Positions 22,430 through 60,655 are shown, counted from the first letter of the stretch. The stretch is DNA of 64,000 nt from Fodinisporobacter ferrooxydans (GCF_022818495.1 NZ_CP089291.1:4357501-4421500); one strand, 5' to 3'. The notes: generated from the letters alone by a model not told the origin. Program-made: numbers and translations.

Positions 22430-22554
22430 AATTCATCACCATCTACTACTATAGCATGAAATCGTTTCGTATTTAATTGAAATAATTTCATAATACATAC
22501 AAAATTATCTTGACACTGTTCCCTTCTACGTGATATGGTTGCTCTGGAAAAATT

Positions 22555-22715
22555 AGTTCTTGTTAGGTGAGGCTTCTATACAAATACACGCCACTACCCA
22601 GAAACGTCGAAAGACGCCAATGGGTTGAACAGGTATTGCCGGATTAAGGCTTTACTTAATGTGGCTAAGCGAAAGCTTGACGTTGTGTAGTGCCAAAGCT
22701 CAACTAGGGGGATGT
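22555..22715 (+). ncRNA. M-box (ykoK) magnesium riboswitch
   Basis: The leader has the conserved M-box segments in order: GTTAGGTGAGGCTTCTATAC at the 5' end, CACGCCACTACCCAGAAACG, the loop CGAAAGACGCCAATGGGT, TGAACAGGTATTGCCGG, and the closing CGTTGTGTAGTGCC. M-boxes fold on Mg2+ and end transcription when it is plentiful. A TTGACA -35 element at 22510-22515 lies at a fitting distance, with a weak TATGGT -10. An expression-platform terminator follows before the MgtE-like gene. Confidence 0.92.
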
Positions 22716-22758
22716 TCAATATCGCTGCATATTTTTTATGCTTCCGTGATTCGTCATG

Positions 22759-22788
22759 TCCCCCTGAGATTGTTCAGGGGTTTTTTTG
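22759..22788 (+). terminator. Riboswitch expression-platform terminator
   Basis: CCCCTGA / TCAGGGG with a 6-base loop is followed by TTTTTTT. The GGGGG at about 22707-22711, at the 3' edge of the aptamer, can pair with the CCCC arm and form the antiterminator at low Mg2+. Confidence 0.85.
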
Positions 22789-22894
22789 TTTATCATGTGT
22801 TCGCTTTATACTGTTTTTGGAAATGATGGATAGCAGGACTTCATGAAATAAATTAGGGAGGGTACATTATAGTCAATTGTAGGAGGATGTGAAC

Positions 22895-24142
22895 ATGAAA
22901 TTTGGCACGACATTTTATTTGAGCAGAGTTGTCGGCAATACCATTTATACAAATGATCAAAAACCAATTGGCAAATTGTTGGATATGATTGTTGATCTGG
23001 ATTCCAGACGTCCCAAAGTTATCGCAATAAAAATCAAGAATAACGGCAGCATTCGGATCATCGATTTTTCAAACGTTTCGATCACAAAGAAGAATCAACA
23101 GTACCACATTCAATGCACTGCTTTGCATGACATGGAGCTTAGTAAGCTTCACACACTTTTTCTTGTAAAACATGTGCTGGATAAACAAATTGTGGACATG
23201 TATGGCAGAAAGGTTGTCAGGGTAAACGACTTGCGACTTGTCGTATTGTCAAATGGTACGTATACGGTCGCGGTCGATGTAGGATTTGAAGGTTTTTTAC
23301 GCAGGCTTGGCGTGGCCAAGCCACTGAAAGAGTTGTTGAAACCATTTCGAATTACCGTTCCCAGCAACTTATTGCTGTGGGATGAGGTCGAAGCGATCGA
23401 TTTTACAAATCGGGGAATCAAGCTCTCAAAAAGCTATGCCAAATTGTCCACTCTGCATCCTTCTGACTTGGCCGACATTTTAGAAGATTTGGATCGCTCC
23501 TCGCAACTCGCCATCTTCTCTTCCTTGGACGATGAGAAAGCGGCAGACGTGCTGGAAGAATTGGAAACGGAAGTACAAGTAAACGTACTGGAAAGCCTGT
23601 CTGTCGAAAAGGCAGCAGATATGCTGGAGAAAATGCCCGCCGATGAAGTTGCAGATATTTTGGAGGAGCTTGAAGCGGAGCGAGCAAACAAGATCTTAAT
23701 CGAGATGGAAAAAGAAGCGTCTGCTGAAGTTCGAGAACTCATGGGATATCCCGAAAAGAGTGTCGGAAGTTTAATGACAACCGATTTTATCTCGTTTCAT
23801 GAGACGATTACAGTACAGGAAGTGTTTGCTGAACTTAGAAGGATAAAGCCTGAACCAGACAGCGTGTATTATTTGTACGTGGTCGATCATGATGGCCGGC
23901 TCGCAGCGAATGTTTCCTTGCGGGACTTGGTGGTTGCCGAACCGGAACAACCTTTGCACAGGATTATGAATCGTGACGTGATTTCCGTATATGACGACGA
24001 CGACATGGACGAAATCGTCGAGAGGATCTCAAAATACAACTTGCTTGCGATTCCTGTCATCGATCGGACAAAAGTACTTGTTGGAACAGTCATCATCAAT
24101 GACGTGTTTTATGATTTCATCAAATCGAAACGGAGAAAATAG
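22895..24142 (+). CDS. Soluble MgtE-type magnesium sensor (PRC-barrel, MgtE_N, CBS pair) without transporter domain
   Basis: This 415-aa protein has two N-terminal PRC-barrel-like segments (about 1-165; PIGKLLDMIVDLDSRRPKVI is typical), then the MgtE superhelical N domain (about 185-285, repeats such as HPSDLADILEDL, AADVLEELE, AADMLEKMPADEVADILEEL), then two CBS domains (about 290-413). In MgtE these parts close the Mg2+ pore when Mg2+ is high. The pore domain is absent and the protein is soluble. The NRAMP-related transporter 19 bp downstream probably takes its place. The ATG at 22895 lies 8 bases after AGGAGG; the GTG two codons earlier is too close. Confidence 0.9.
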   Translation: MKFGTTFYLSRVVGNTIYTNDQKPIGKLLDMIVDLDSRRPKVIAIKIKNNGSIRIIDFSNVSITKKNQQYHIQCTALHDMELSKLHTLFLVKHVLDKQIVDMYGRKVVRVNDLRLVVLSNGTYTVAVDVGFEGFLRRLGVAKPLKELLKPFRITVPSNLLLWDEVEAIDFTNRGIKLSKSYAKLSTLHPSDLADILEDLDRSSQLAIFSSLDDEKAADVLEELETEVQVNVLESLSVEKAADMLEKMPADEVADILEELEAERANKILIEMEKEASAEVRELMGYPEKSVGSLMTTDFISFHETITVQEVFAELRRIKPEPDSVYYLYVVDHDGRLAANVSLRDLVVAEPEQPLHRIMNRDVISVYDDDDMDEIVERISKYNLLAIPVIDRTKVLVGTVIINDVFYDFIKSKRRK

Positions 24143-24161
24143 CCGGGAAGGAGGGACTGGC

Positions 24162-25403
24162 ATGAGAAAAAACCATAGCATGTGGTCAAAAATTCTGACT
24201 TTTATGGCCCTTCTTGGCCCTGGCATTATTACCGGAAGCGTGGATAATGATGCCGGCGGAATCACCACGTATTCGGCTGCAGGCGCCATGTACGGGTATA
24301 ATATGATTTGGACATTGATCCCGGCTTTTATCGTTCTTTTAATTGTGCAGGAAATGAACGCAAGGATGGGGATTGTCACAGGAAAAGGCCTTGCCGACCT
24401 GATCCGGGAAAATGCGGGCGTAAAAGTAACATTTTTTATTTTTATCGGCCTGTTATTTGCCGACATCAGCAATACAATGACAGAGTTCGCCGGAGTTGCG
24501 GGAAGTATGGAGGTATTTGGAGTCAGCAAATATATCGCCATCCCGCTCACTGCCATCGGCGTTTGGCTGCTTGTGGTGAAAGGCAATTATCAATTTGCGG
24601 AAAAAATATTTTTGATTTTCAGTGTTGCACTGCTGTCCTATATTTTCTCTGCATTAATGGGAAAGCCTCATTGGTCGGAAATTGGTTCCGCTGTGATTCA
24701 TCCACATGTACCGGTGAACTTTGATTCCATTTCGATGGTGATCGGATTAGTGGGAACAACGATTGCCCCGTGGATGCAGTTTTACATGCAATCGGCAGTG
24801 ATCGAAAAAGGATTGACTCCCGAGGATTATAAATACACCATATGGGATATTGTAGTTGGCTGTATTGCAACGGTTGTTGTAGCTTTCTTTATCATGGTTG
24901 CATGCGGCTCCACTCTTTTTGTCAATGGCCATGGTACACAGATTAATGATGCAAAAGATGCCGCTGTCGCTTTGAAACCATTCGCTGGTGCAATGGCCTC
25001 GCAAGTGTTTGCTTTTGGCCTCTTTATTGCTTCCATATTTTCAGCAACCATTTTGCCTGTTGCCACTGCATTCTATGTTTGTGAAGCGTTCGGTTTTGAA
25101 GCGGGAATCGAAAAAAAATGGAAAGAAGCGCCTCAATTCTATATTTTGTATACCATTATTTTGATTCTTTCCGCAAGCATCATACTGATCCCAAATGCGC
25201 CGCTGATTGCCATTACTTTGTGGTCGCAAAGAATCAATGGGATCCTTTTGCCGATCGTATTAATATGTATGATGCTTTTGGTGAACAACAAAGAGATTAT
25301 GGGCAAATTTACAAACAAGAAGTGGAACAATATCATCGGCTGGTTCACCATTTTTATTTTGGTTGTCTTATCGCTCGTCCTCGTTGTGTTATCTATTTTT
25401 TAG
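24162..25403 (+). CDS. NRAMP-related magnesium transporter (NRMT-like)
   Basis: This 413-aa membrane protein has the NRAMP fold. TM1 reads LGPGIITGSVDNDAGGITTY (residues 18-37), so the canonical DPGN is replaced by DAGG. TM6 reads TTIAPWMQFYMQ (199-210), so the canonical MPHN methionine that selects soft transition metals is alanine (A202). Loss of that methionine is the mark of NRMTs, which carry Mg2+ and Mn2+. Control by the M-box and pairing with an MgtE-type sensor both support Mg2+ as substrate. GGAAGGAGGG precedes the ATG; the longer frame from 23991 overlaps the sensor gene and is not used. Confidence 0.87.
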   Translation: MRKNHSMWSKILTFMALLGPGIITGSVDNDAGGITTYSAAGAMYGYNMIWTLIPAFIVLLIVQEMNARMGIVTGKGLADLIRENAGVKVTFFIFIGLLFADISNTMTEFAGVAGSMEVFGVSKYIAIPLTAIGVWLLVVKGNYQFAEKIFLIFSVALLSYIFSALMGKPHWSEIGSAVIHPHVPVNFDSISMVIGLVGTTIAPWMQFYMQSAVIEKGLTPEDYKYTIWDIVVGCIATVVVAFFIMVACGSTLFVNGHGTQINDAKDAAVALKPFAGAMASQVFAFGLFIASIFSATILPVATAFYVCEAFGFEAGIEKKWKEAPQFYILYTIILILSASIILIPNAPLIAITLWSQRINGILLPIVLICMMLLVNNKEIMGKFTNKKWNNIIGWFTIFILVVLSLVLVVLSIF

Positions 25404-25408
25404 AGAAG

Positions 25409-25452
25409 AAAATCCCCATTCACACCATACAGGGTTGAACGGGGATTTTTTT
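25409..25452. terminator. Bidirectional terminator
   Basis: AAAATCCCC / GGGGATTTTTTT arms, about 23-base loop. It lies between the Mg-transport operon and the converging hexuronate operon. Confidence 0.8.
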
Positions 25453-59187: not shown

Positions 59188-60189
59188 TCATGACTCTTGA
59201 TAGTTGCGCTTCAACCGTTTCCATGGAAGCTTGCCTGATTGCTTCGCCAAATCCGTCTGCAACAGTCCGCGAATGATACACGTATCCGGCTCATCGGCAA
59301 CGATCACCGGAATTTCCGTAGTTTTCAATATCATGGTTTGCAGATCGGTTGCTTTTGCACCGCCACCGACAAGGATCATTCCATGATCCAGTATATCTCC
59401 GACCAGTTCAGGCGGGGCAGCTTCCAACGAATGAAGGATCAGTGTGTGAATGGATTCATAATAGCGGTTAAAGAGCTCTTCAACCACACTGCGCGGGATG
59501 TTTAACGAATCAGGCAAACCAGTAGTTAAACTTCTTCCTCGCACCTCAAACTCCCGTGCATCTTTGTCTTCGCCATACATATGCTTTAATCTTTCAGCGG
59601 AACGTTGCCCAATCAGAAATTGGAACTGTTTTCTGGCCGTTTCAACCAGACCTTCATCAATGGAACGACTGCCTGTCCGCACCGATTTGCTTTGCACGAT
59701 GCCGCCCATTGATAATAACGATACTTCCGTTACTCCAGCTCCTAAATTTACAATCAAATAGCCTCTCGATGTATCCATTGGCAAACCAGCCCCAATCGCT
59801 GCGGCAATCGATGAATCAAACAATTCCACATGATTGGCTCCTGCCATTGCGCCTGCATCTTGTAAAGCTCTCTTTTCAATTTGTGTCATTTGCGAAGGAA
59901 TCGAAAGCGTGAGCGAAAACTTTTTGCCGAATGTTCGGCTGCGAAAGGTTGAAACCGCATGTTTCACGACTTCCCTGGCCGCTTCCATATCCTTAATGAT
60001 TCCTCCAACAACCGGAAACCCTACCTGAATCGAATGCGGATTTCTGCCCAACATCTGTTCCGCTTGATTCCCTACAATAAATTGCCCGGACTGATCACGG
60101 GCGACTACACTTGATTCGTTGATAAACTCCTTTTGTCCAGACATCCCGGCACGAAACTCACATGTACCTAAGTCCATTACAATTCTCAT
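59188..60189 (-). CDS. MreB-like bacterial actin, divergent
   Basis: This 333-aa protein has the actin/HSP70 ATPase fold of MreB: phosphate-1 DLGTCEFRAGM, connect-1 region LFDSSIAAAIGAGLPMDTS, phosphate-2 VNLGAGVTEVSLLSMGGIV, MreB-type VRTGSRSIDEGL and IGQRSAERLKHMYG, and adenosine motif ILVGGGAKATDLQTMI. Several canonical Gly/Thr residues differ (DLGTCEF for DLGTANT, NLGAGVT for DIGGGTT), so it is a paralogue of MreB, Mbl or MreBH rather than an ordinary MreB. It is not next to mreC or mreD and stands behind a ydaO riboswitch. It most likely shapes or remodels the cell wall. Confidence 0.82.
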   Translation of the reverse strand: MRIVMDLGTCEFRAGMSGQKEFINESSVVARDQSGQFIVGNQAEQMLGRNPHSIQVGFPVVGGIIKDMEAAREVVKHAVSTFRSRTFGKKFSLTLSIPSQMTQIEKRALQDAGAMAGANHVELFDSSIAAAIGAGLPMDTSRGYLIVNLGAGVTEVSLLSMGGIVQSKSVRTGSRSIDEGLVETARKQFQFLIGQRSAERLKHMYGEDKDAREFEVRGRSLTTGLPDSLNIPRSVVEELFNRYYESIHTLILHSLEAAPPELVGDILDHGMILVGGGAKATDLQTMILKTTEIPVIVADEPDTCIIRGLLQTDLAKQSGKLPWKRLKRNYQES

Positions 60190-60342
60190 CTATGTCCCAC
60201 CATTCTTAGCATCACGAATCTCAAAAAGGAAGACGTGTACTATGCGTCTACATGTGCTTCATCGGTTGTGGGCCGAATAGAGGACATACGAACCTTTCAA
60301 TCGAGCACAAAACTTCGTATTCAATTCACTTCATCCTTTCTT

Positions 60343-60450
60343 GACGCCTACGAGGTTAGTTGACGGATTCGGGTAGAAAGGTAACCCTGGACAAATGTCC
60401 TTCACCCCATAAAAAAATCCCCCGCCCGATGTGAATCGACTCGGCGTTTC
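60343..60450 (-). ncRNA. ydaO-yuaA class c-di-AMP riboswitch
   Basis: Read on the minus strand, the leader of the MreB-like gene has the ydaO consensus: AACGCCGAGTCGATT at the 5' side, GGGCGGGGGATTTTTTTATG and GGGGTGAAGGAC, then GGGTTACCTTTCTACCCGAA, TCCGTCAACTAACCTCG and the closing TAGGCGT. The aptamer binds two c-di-AMP molecules and usually turns the gene off. Between it and the ATG are about 150 bases with possible hairpins (TACGAA/TTCGTA and AGACG/CGTCT before TCCTTTTTG). Confidence 0.9.
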
Positions 60451-60655
60451 TTAAATATTTGCAATACAGTTTATAGATTTCGTTTACGAATCTAGTTTTT
60501 TGTAGGTCAAAACAAGTAGATTTTGGAGGCATGCGGGAATCAACGAAAGCATTTGCTTCATTGTTTCTGACTGTTCCTCATGTGACTTGAATTTTCAAAG
60601 ATTCTTATTTAAAATAATTATAAAGTTATAATCATTCAAAGGAGTGAACGTACAT

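Follow-up and report, generated by a model that had tools for sequence, protein, structure and literature searches.

An MgtE-like sensor and an NRMT-type transporter share a riboswitch-controlled, probable Mg2+ uptake operon in Fodinisporobacter ferrooxydans

A 64,000-nucleotide stretch of the Fodinisporobacter ferrooxydans genome (GCF_022818495.1 NZ_CP089291.1:4357501-4421500), hereafter the window, carries on its plus strand a short operon that combines a magnesium riboswitch with two genes. An M-box (ykoK) Mg2+ riboswitch aptamer (22552-22717) is followed by gene 1 (22895-24142), which encodes a 415-residue protein resembling the cytosolic part of the MgtE channel, and, after 19 nucleotides (nt), by gene 2 (24162-25403), which encodes a 413-residue NRAMP-related Mg2+ transporter (NRMT). 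Here we describe these elements, their distribution in other genomes, and the possibility that the first protein, a putative sensor, gates the second.

The aptamer matches the whole RF00380 covariance model (positions 1-169) and scores 150.7 bits, where the gathering score is 44 (E value 2.4e-34). This bears out the M-box named in a first-pass annotation of the window, whose starting point of 22555 lay 3 nt inside the aptamer; its other details were correct. A genome-wide search found no second M-box in the 4.86-Mb genome. Upstream, a candidate promoter (22510-22539, plus strand) reads TTGACA-18-TATGGT with a TG ahead of the second hexamer, and is proposed from a consensus match of 10 of 12 positions alone.

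Between the M-box and gene 1 lies an intrinsic terminator (22761-22780, or 22761-22787 with its T-run; plus strand; CCCCTGAGATTGTTCAGGGG TTTTTTT; −12.8 kcal/mol). Free folding of 22700-22780 with ViennaRNA yields, instead of this terminator, a long candidate antiterminator (−25.6 kcal/mol) built on the pairing of AACUAGGGGGAUG with CAUGUCCCCCUGAG (22702-22772, plus strand). The sequence AACUAG forms both the 5′ part of the antiterminator and the 3′ strand of aptamer helix P1 (pairing UUAGUU/AACUAG), and closure of P1 would therefore compete with antitermination. The leader folds more stably than shuffled sequences (z = −3.4). M-boxes elsewhere are known to operate by OFF logic through P1 closure and a terminator, and an expression platform that overlaps P1 in this manner, with a terminator and an alternative pairing of AACUAGGGGGAUG located 3′ of the aptamer, suggests that the present leader follows the same published scheme.

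Gene 1, for which an alternative upstream GTG start is possible at 22889, had been described in the first-pass annotation as a pore-less protein with MgtE N and CBS domains to which PRC barrels are added, and Pfam searches agree. A PRC-barrel (PF05239) at residues 5-66 scores 33 bits against a cut-off of 21.2, MgtE_N (PF03448) at 187-288 scores 98 bits, and two CBS domains (PF00571; 289-405) score 57 bits, whereas the same searches find no MgtE membrane domain (PF01769) in the protein. The TIGR00400 mgtE profile aligns below its cut-off and only over positions 19-248 of 450. Lacking a membrane domain, the gene 1 product is not an MgtE. In its predicted structure, two N-terminal domains rich in beta structure precede a helical superhelix and the CBS pair, and the model superimposes on the Mg2+-bound MgtE cytosolic domain (2YVY) over 241 residues with a Z score of 21.2 and a root-mean-square deviation (rmsd) of 3.0; the protein modelled alone has a predicted template modelling score (pTM) of 0.64. 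Residues ~87-167 give no Pfam match, and their position, predicted fold and conservation suggest a second, PRC-like domain. The listed matches in the Protein Data Bank (PDB), a list filled by CBS matches, include none to the PRC domains.

Gene 2 matches Nramp (PF01566) with 319 bits, and its best solved relative is EleNRMT (7QIA; E value 4.5e-113). A close relative of the gene 2 product, encoded at locus L017, aligns with 7QIA over 388 residues (Z score 53.0, rmsd 2.4, 44% identity). Transmembrane helix 1 (TM1) carries D30-A31-G32-G33 and TM6 carries G-T-T-I-A202-P-W, so that the binding-site signature DxxG - TxxA/T, given for NRMTs in the available portion of Ramanadane et al. 2022 (PMC8806188), is present as D30..G33 and T199..A202. 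All 77 NRMT relatives compared have DxGG together with GTT[IV]APW. EleNRMT is an uncoupled transporter that carries Mg2+ without protons, and Mg2+ transport is reported for EleNRMT and for the Clostridium acetobutylicum homologues in the accessible parts of the two studies concerned (PMC8806188, PMC4072509). By these resemblances, the gene 2 product would admit Mg2+ without proton coupling. The first-pass annotation had singled out A202 and DAGG, both of which are correct, as the changes expected for Mg2+ transport. The assignment to the NRMT class holds, although the motif is not by itself proof of substrate: an EcoDMT triple mutant given the NRMT residues gained no Mg2+ transport, according to the portion of PMC8806188 at hand, and an A. 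capsulatum NrmT with an adjacent fragment behaved as a Mn2+ importer. Downstream of gene 2, a hairpin read by eye (AATCCCCATTCACACC...GGGTTGAACGGGGATTTTTTT; 25411-25452, plus strand) is the likely operon terminator, although it is absent from the output of the terminator scan.

An arrangement of this kind has been described before. As far as the accessible text of Shin et al. 2014 (PMC4072509) goes, M-boxes lie upstream of NrmT genes, most members of the group combine an M-box, an MgtE-like cytoplasmic fragment and NrmT, and the fragment was proposed to exert cytoplasmic feedback or to serve as a chaperone. Gene 1 fits this fragment, being pore-less, adjacent to nrmT and under an M-box. The pairing was thus not as little described as the first-pass annotation supposed, at least for the arrangement and the feedback proposal, which the available text of that paper already contains. 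Among the open-access papers searched, we found none joining PRC-barrel and MgtE, DUF1003 and magnesium, or MgtE N-terminal domain proteins and Nramp.

A scan of 84,980 genomes for NRMTs, which favours close relatives, returned 80 loci from many phyla. A gene 1 homologue adjoins the NRMT gene in all 80, upstream in 78 and downstream in two (L080, L081); at one locus (L077) the sensor is seen only as a fragment at a contig end. Spacing between the two genes mostly ranges from a 10-nt overlap to a 24-nt gap, with 14 cases of four-nt overlap, and no natural fusion was seen among the open reading frames of the loci read. An M-box precedes the sensor gene at 19 of the 80 loci, all of them in Bacillota; the only Bacillota loci without it are L008, L013 and L026, which is truncated, and no locus outside Bacillota has it. 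Because the scan favours close relatives, 299 evenly drawn Bacillota genomes were searched as well, counting as NRMTs those scoring over 380 bits. Every NRMT found there (28 of 28) has an adjacent sensor gene. Conversely, 28 of 31 sensors (30 full-length, one split) lie beside an NRMT, while one of the remainder is at a contig end (G231). These counts supply the tally of adjacent MgtE_N-CBS and NRAMP genes that the first-pass annotation had called for, and come out in its favour.

The association extends to more distant relatives and to the opposite gene order. A search of 296 genomes of Bacteroidota brought up a divergent group of sensors, comprising 31 genes (277-302 bits), and in all 23 of its loci fetched a divergent NRAMP gene with NDAGG and GTTIAPW lies upstream of the sensor. 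An intermediate locus (L158) likewise has a divergent NRAMP upstream of its sensor, with NDAGG and GTTITPW. The NRMT-then-sensor order of Bacteroidota also occurs on plasmids of Citrobacter, Cellulomonas and Leifsonia, while Rhodococcus has the sensor-then-NRMT order of the window. One NRMT-like gene (L116) has no sensor within 1.5 kb. Sequence divergence of the two partners is uneven: at L103-L106 the sensors are ~60% identical to that of the window and the NRMTs 48-49%, whereas at many Omnitrophota loci the sensors are 25-30% identical and the NRMTs 65-68%. Re-pairing of sensors and transporters or uneven rates of change could account for this pattern. The distances of sensors and NRMTs are correlated (r = 0.31 over 99 pairs; maximum of 0.16 in 500 permutations), a result that we dropped as evidence for co-evolution because kinship and uneven rates confound it too strongly.

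Several of these loci have neighbours of some interest. On a conjugative Citrobacter plasmid (L182, 1-5227) and on a Cellulomonas plasmid (L183) the NRMT-sensor pair lies beside genes for an ArsR-type regulator and a heavy-metal P-type ATPase, and in Leifsonia (L184, 3974-6050) the gene after the pair belongs to the MgtC/SapB family and encodes another Mg2+-related protein. A NiCo riboswitch is situated immediately 3′ of one NRMT gene (L018, 6321-6406). In Alicyclobacillus fastidiosus (L010, L187) the pair is plasmid-borne and flanked by a recombinase and by transposases, which points to mobility.

The distribution of the MgtE channel itself is complementary. No MgtE channel domain (PF01769) is found anywhere in the F. 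ferrooxydans genome, which leaves its sensor without an MgtE as a target. Across the 299 Bacillota genomes, 187 have an MgtE channel over the cut-off, and these include only three of the 28 that possess the pair or a sensor, versus 184 of the 271 others (Fisher p = 3.7e-9, without correction for relatedness). Two families (f18, f34) contain some genomes with the pair and no MgtE, and others with MgtE and no pair. MgtE over the cut-off occurs in six of 47 genomes with an NRMT drawn from several phyla, a figure that lacks a baseline for those phyla and includes several incomplete genomes. The divergent Bacteroidota group is left out of all these counts. We infer that the sensor-NRMT pair stands in for MgtE in Bacillota, and that the sensor in pair-bearing members usually lacks an MgtE on which to act.

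Residues that bind Mg2+ in the Thermus thermophilus channel (TtMgtE; PMC5882242) were mapped onto 79 sensors. Both aspartates of site Mg4 are widely kept: D91 (D250 in the window) in 77 sensors and D247 (D403) in 76, ranking 20 and 21 of 415 positions by entropy. The Mg6 residue D95 (D254) is present in all 79 and ranks 7 of 415, and the position of Mg7 residue E59 is Asp in 58. The charge of the window sensor is distributed unevenly, with −21 on the N domain and −10 on the CBS pair versus +7 and +4 on the two N-terminal domains. Residues conserved in at least 95% of sensors number five in MgtE_N, six in the CBS pair and nine in the second PRC-like domain (D96, Q98, R109, N111, D112, D128, R136, R137 and W162). 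In the divergent sensors Q98, R109 and N111 are altered while D112, D128 and W162 are retained, and a sensor partnered with a DUF1003 protein has lost D128 and W162. This pattern of conservation across partners suggests that the second PRC-like domain may contact the membrane partner.

Taken together, the observations are most readily understood if this is a two-gene nrmT-type Mg2+ uptake operon whose MgtE-like sensor gates the NRMT in trans at high Mg2+, a reading that we consider probable although far from assured. At low Mg2+ the aptamer would remain loose, the antiterminator would form and both genes would be transcribed, whereas at high Mg2+ helix P1 would close, the terminator would form and transcription would halt. 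The gene 1 product would be a soluble sensor of Mg2+ that sets the cytosolic half of MgtE upon two PRC domains, and Mg2+ would bridge its acidic N and CBS domains as it does in MgtE, where these domains are known to gate the channel. It would dock on the NRMT, perhaps via the second PRC-like domain, and damp import in the Mg2+-replete cell. NRMT imports Mg2+ without coupling, and this ion abounds within the cell as well as around it; for a passive importer induced by a riboswitch, transcription alone would be too slow a stop, and a post-translational brake is therefore to be expected. The linkage, the shared operon, the genome without an MgtE channel and the retained Mg2+-site aspartates make gating in trans the best explanation, in keeping with the first-pass annotation, which had offered a relocated MgtE gate as the simplest reading. 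Sensor and pore would then have become separate proteins, with a carrier that has a different fold in place of the pore.

A number of observations weigh against gating of this kind. The plug helix that shuts the MgtE pore is absent from the sensor, which stops 12 residues past the D247 equivalent (median 13) in a basic tail. Site Mg5 (D226/D250) is not retained, D226, the bridge to the plug helix, being N382 in the window and Asp in only 19 of 79 sensors, and the ATP-stacking F227 is Leu in the window sensor. With these three features lost, gating cannot run exactly as in MgtE. Moreover, D91 and D95 sit in a repeated helical motif, and their conservation may be structural. Two Bacillota sensors have no adjacent NRMT: one, with no M-box, precedes an amino-acid permease that shares the NRAMP superfamily fold (L149, 6022-9408), and the other (L150, 5761-7432) lies behind an M-box and has no transporter after it, although its genome holds two further sensor-NRMT pairs. 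On a Tsukamurella plasmid (L185, 3980-5793) a sensor homologue gene overlaps a gene for a DUF1003 membrane protein, with no NRMT, and the sensor is thus not wholly exclusive to NRMT. In experiments reported in the accessible text of Shin et al. (PMC4072509), NrmT complements without the fragment, and co-expression of the A. capsulatum pair made Mg2+ rescue no better; an inhibitory gate is not expected to aid rescue, and that transporter carried mainly Mn2+. Finally, an AlphaFold co-fold in which the sensor reads through into the NRMT (the L017 relative; 29 paired rows out of 31 loci with the genes in the same frame, and 68 unpaired rows) has a pTM of 0.67 and a mean predicted local distance difference test score (pLDDT) of 86.2, but the linker (416-430) falls below a pLDDT of 50, no inter-domain error is given and no interface is claimed.

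Loss of the plug helix would also fit a protein that serves the NRMT as an assembly or stability partner, assisting its folding or membrane delivery or protecting it from proteolysis, with Mg2+ binding secondary and import ungated. Tight linkage and close or overlapping genes are compatible with any obligate partner, and many of the invariant residues fall in the PRC-like domain, which MgtE lacks. However, an assembly partner would not need to retain the Mg2+-site aspartates, NrmT alone complements a Mg2+-transport mutant in the available portion of PMC4072509, and EleNRMT was purified and studied alone, judging from the part of PMC8806188 at hand, which implies that no partner is needed for folding. 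We regard this role as unlikely.

Alternatively, the MgtE-like protein might act elsewhere, as a Mg2+ buffer or chaperone or as a regulator of other transporters, merely sharing the riboswitch with NRMT. The chaperone option is the one named by Shin et al. in the text available (PMC4072509), and both the solitary M-box and sensor at L150 and the DUF1003 pairing could be viewed in this way. We nevertheless find it just as unlikely, given that no NRMT without a sensor occurs in the 299 Bacillota genomes, that linkage persists through reversal of gene order, and that this genome, which has no MgtE, has one CorA.

A further question is whether the pair serves not Mg2+ but Mn2+ or some other divalent metal. 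A. capsulatum NrmT, with its adjacent fragment, restored growth of a Mn2+ mutant and behaves as a Mn2+ importer in the accessible text of PMC4072509, and EleNRMT carries Mn2+ as well as Mg2+ according to the portion of PMC8806188 available. The operon in the window is under a Mg2+ riboswitch, however; the M-box-controlled C. acetobutylicum homologue restored Mg2+ but not Mn2+ growth; and an MntH-like gene, with DPGN and MPH, is present elsewhere in the genome (L001). A pair devoted to another metal is accordingly quite improbable here. Adjacency by chance or mere inheritance, for which only the two unpaired sensors speak, is hardly credible given the pairing at all 80 loci across many phyla and in both gene orders, together with uneven divergence (L103-L106, Omnitrophota) that suggests re-pairing.

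If the MgtE-like protein is indeed a brake on the NRMT, a module that evolved to gate a channel has moved, as a subunit in its own right, to a carrier whose fold is different. A broader proposition, which we advance tentatively and hold at somewhat less than even chances, is that PRC-MgtE_N-CBS is a portable Mg2+-sensing brake re-used with unrelated membrane proteins, namely NRMT clades of either gene order, seemingly re-paired on several occasions, and, in some Actinomycetota, DUF1003 proteins. The Bacillota pair would then replace MgtE, and docking would have shifted from the plug helix to a PRC domain.

Other genes of the genome that might relate to metals were also considered. Its P-type ATPases all fall under the MgtA cut-off. 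An NRAMP relative (L003, G000:C1:4838511-4839524) has DTDAGS in TM1 and GAVIMPW in TM6, and is neither MntH nor NRMT. A second MgtE_N match (L086) was rejected as an MgtE remnant, since it lies among fliI-, fliJ- and fliK-like flagellar export genes and its product looks MotE-type. Elsewhere in the window, a c-di-AMP riboswitch (RF00379, 86.2 bits; 60331-60456, minus strand) is located upstream of an MreB/Mbl-like cell-shape gene (59188-60189, minus strand).

Among known systems, MgtE combines sensor and pore in a single chain. The gene 1 product resembles the T. thermophilus channel (PDB 2YVX/2ZY9; 2YVY) in its N domain, CBS pair, Mg4 and Mg6 aspartates and overall fold, but has no membrane domain or plug helix, has added N-terminal PRC domains, and does not retain the Mg5 and ATP-stacking residues. 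The B. subtilis mgtE M-box shares the aptamer family and terminator/antiterminator logic, although it controls the MgtE channel, whereas the M-box in the window controls a sensor and an NRMT. EleNRMT of Eggerthella lenta (PDB 7QIA) shares the NRMT fold and binding-site signature with gene 2 but was studied without a sensor partner, and the available portion of that report (PMC8806188) mentions no MgtE-like partner.

The closest counterparts are the nrmT operons of C. acetobutylicum and relatives, which, as described in the accessible part of PMC4072509, have the same M-box, MgtE cytoplasmic-domain fragment, NrmT and proposed feedback. In C. acetobutylicum (Ca_c0685) the fragment is split over two genes in that account, whereas in the window it is one gene of 415 codons, and the text available does not discuss PRC domains, retention of Mg2+ sites or exclusion of MgtE. 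The operon described here therefore adds a member to a published type, and both arrangement and hypothesis date from 2014. What is new by computation is the near-obligate linkage in both gene orders, with its reversed-order pairs, the exclusion of MgtE, the retention of Mg2+-site aspartates and a conserved PRC-like domain absent from MgtE. Linkage, exclusion and the kept aspartates sharpen the speculation of 2014 into a clear prediction.

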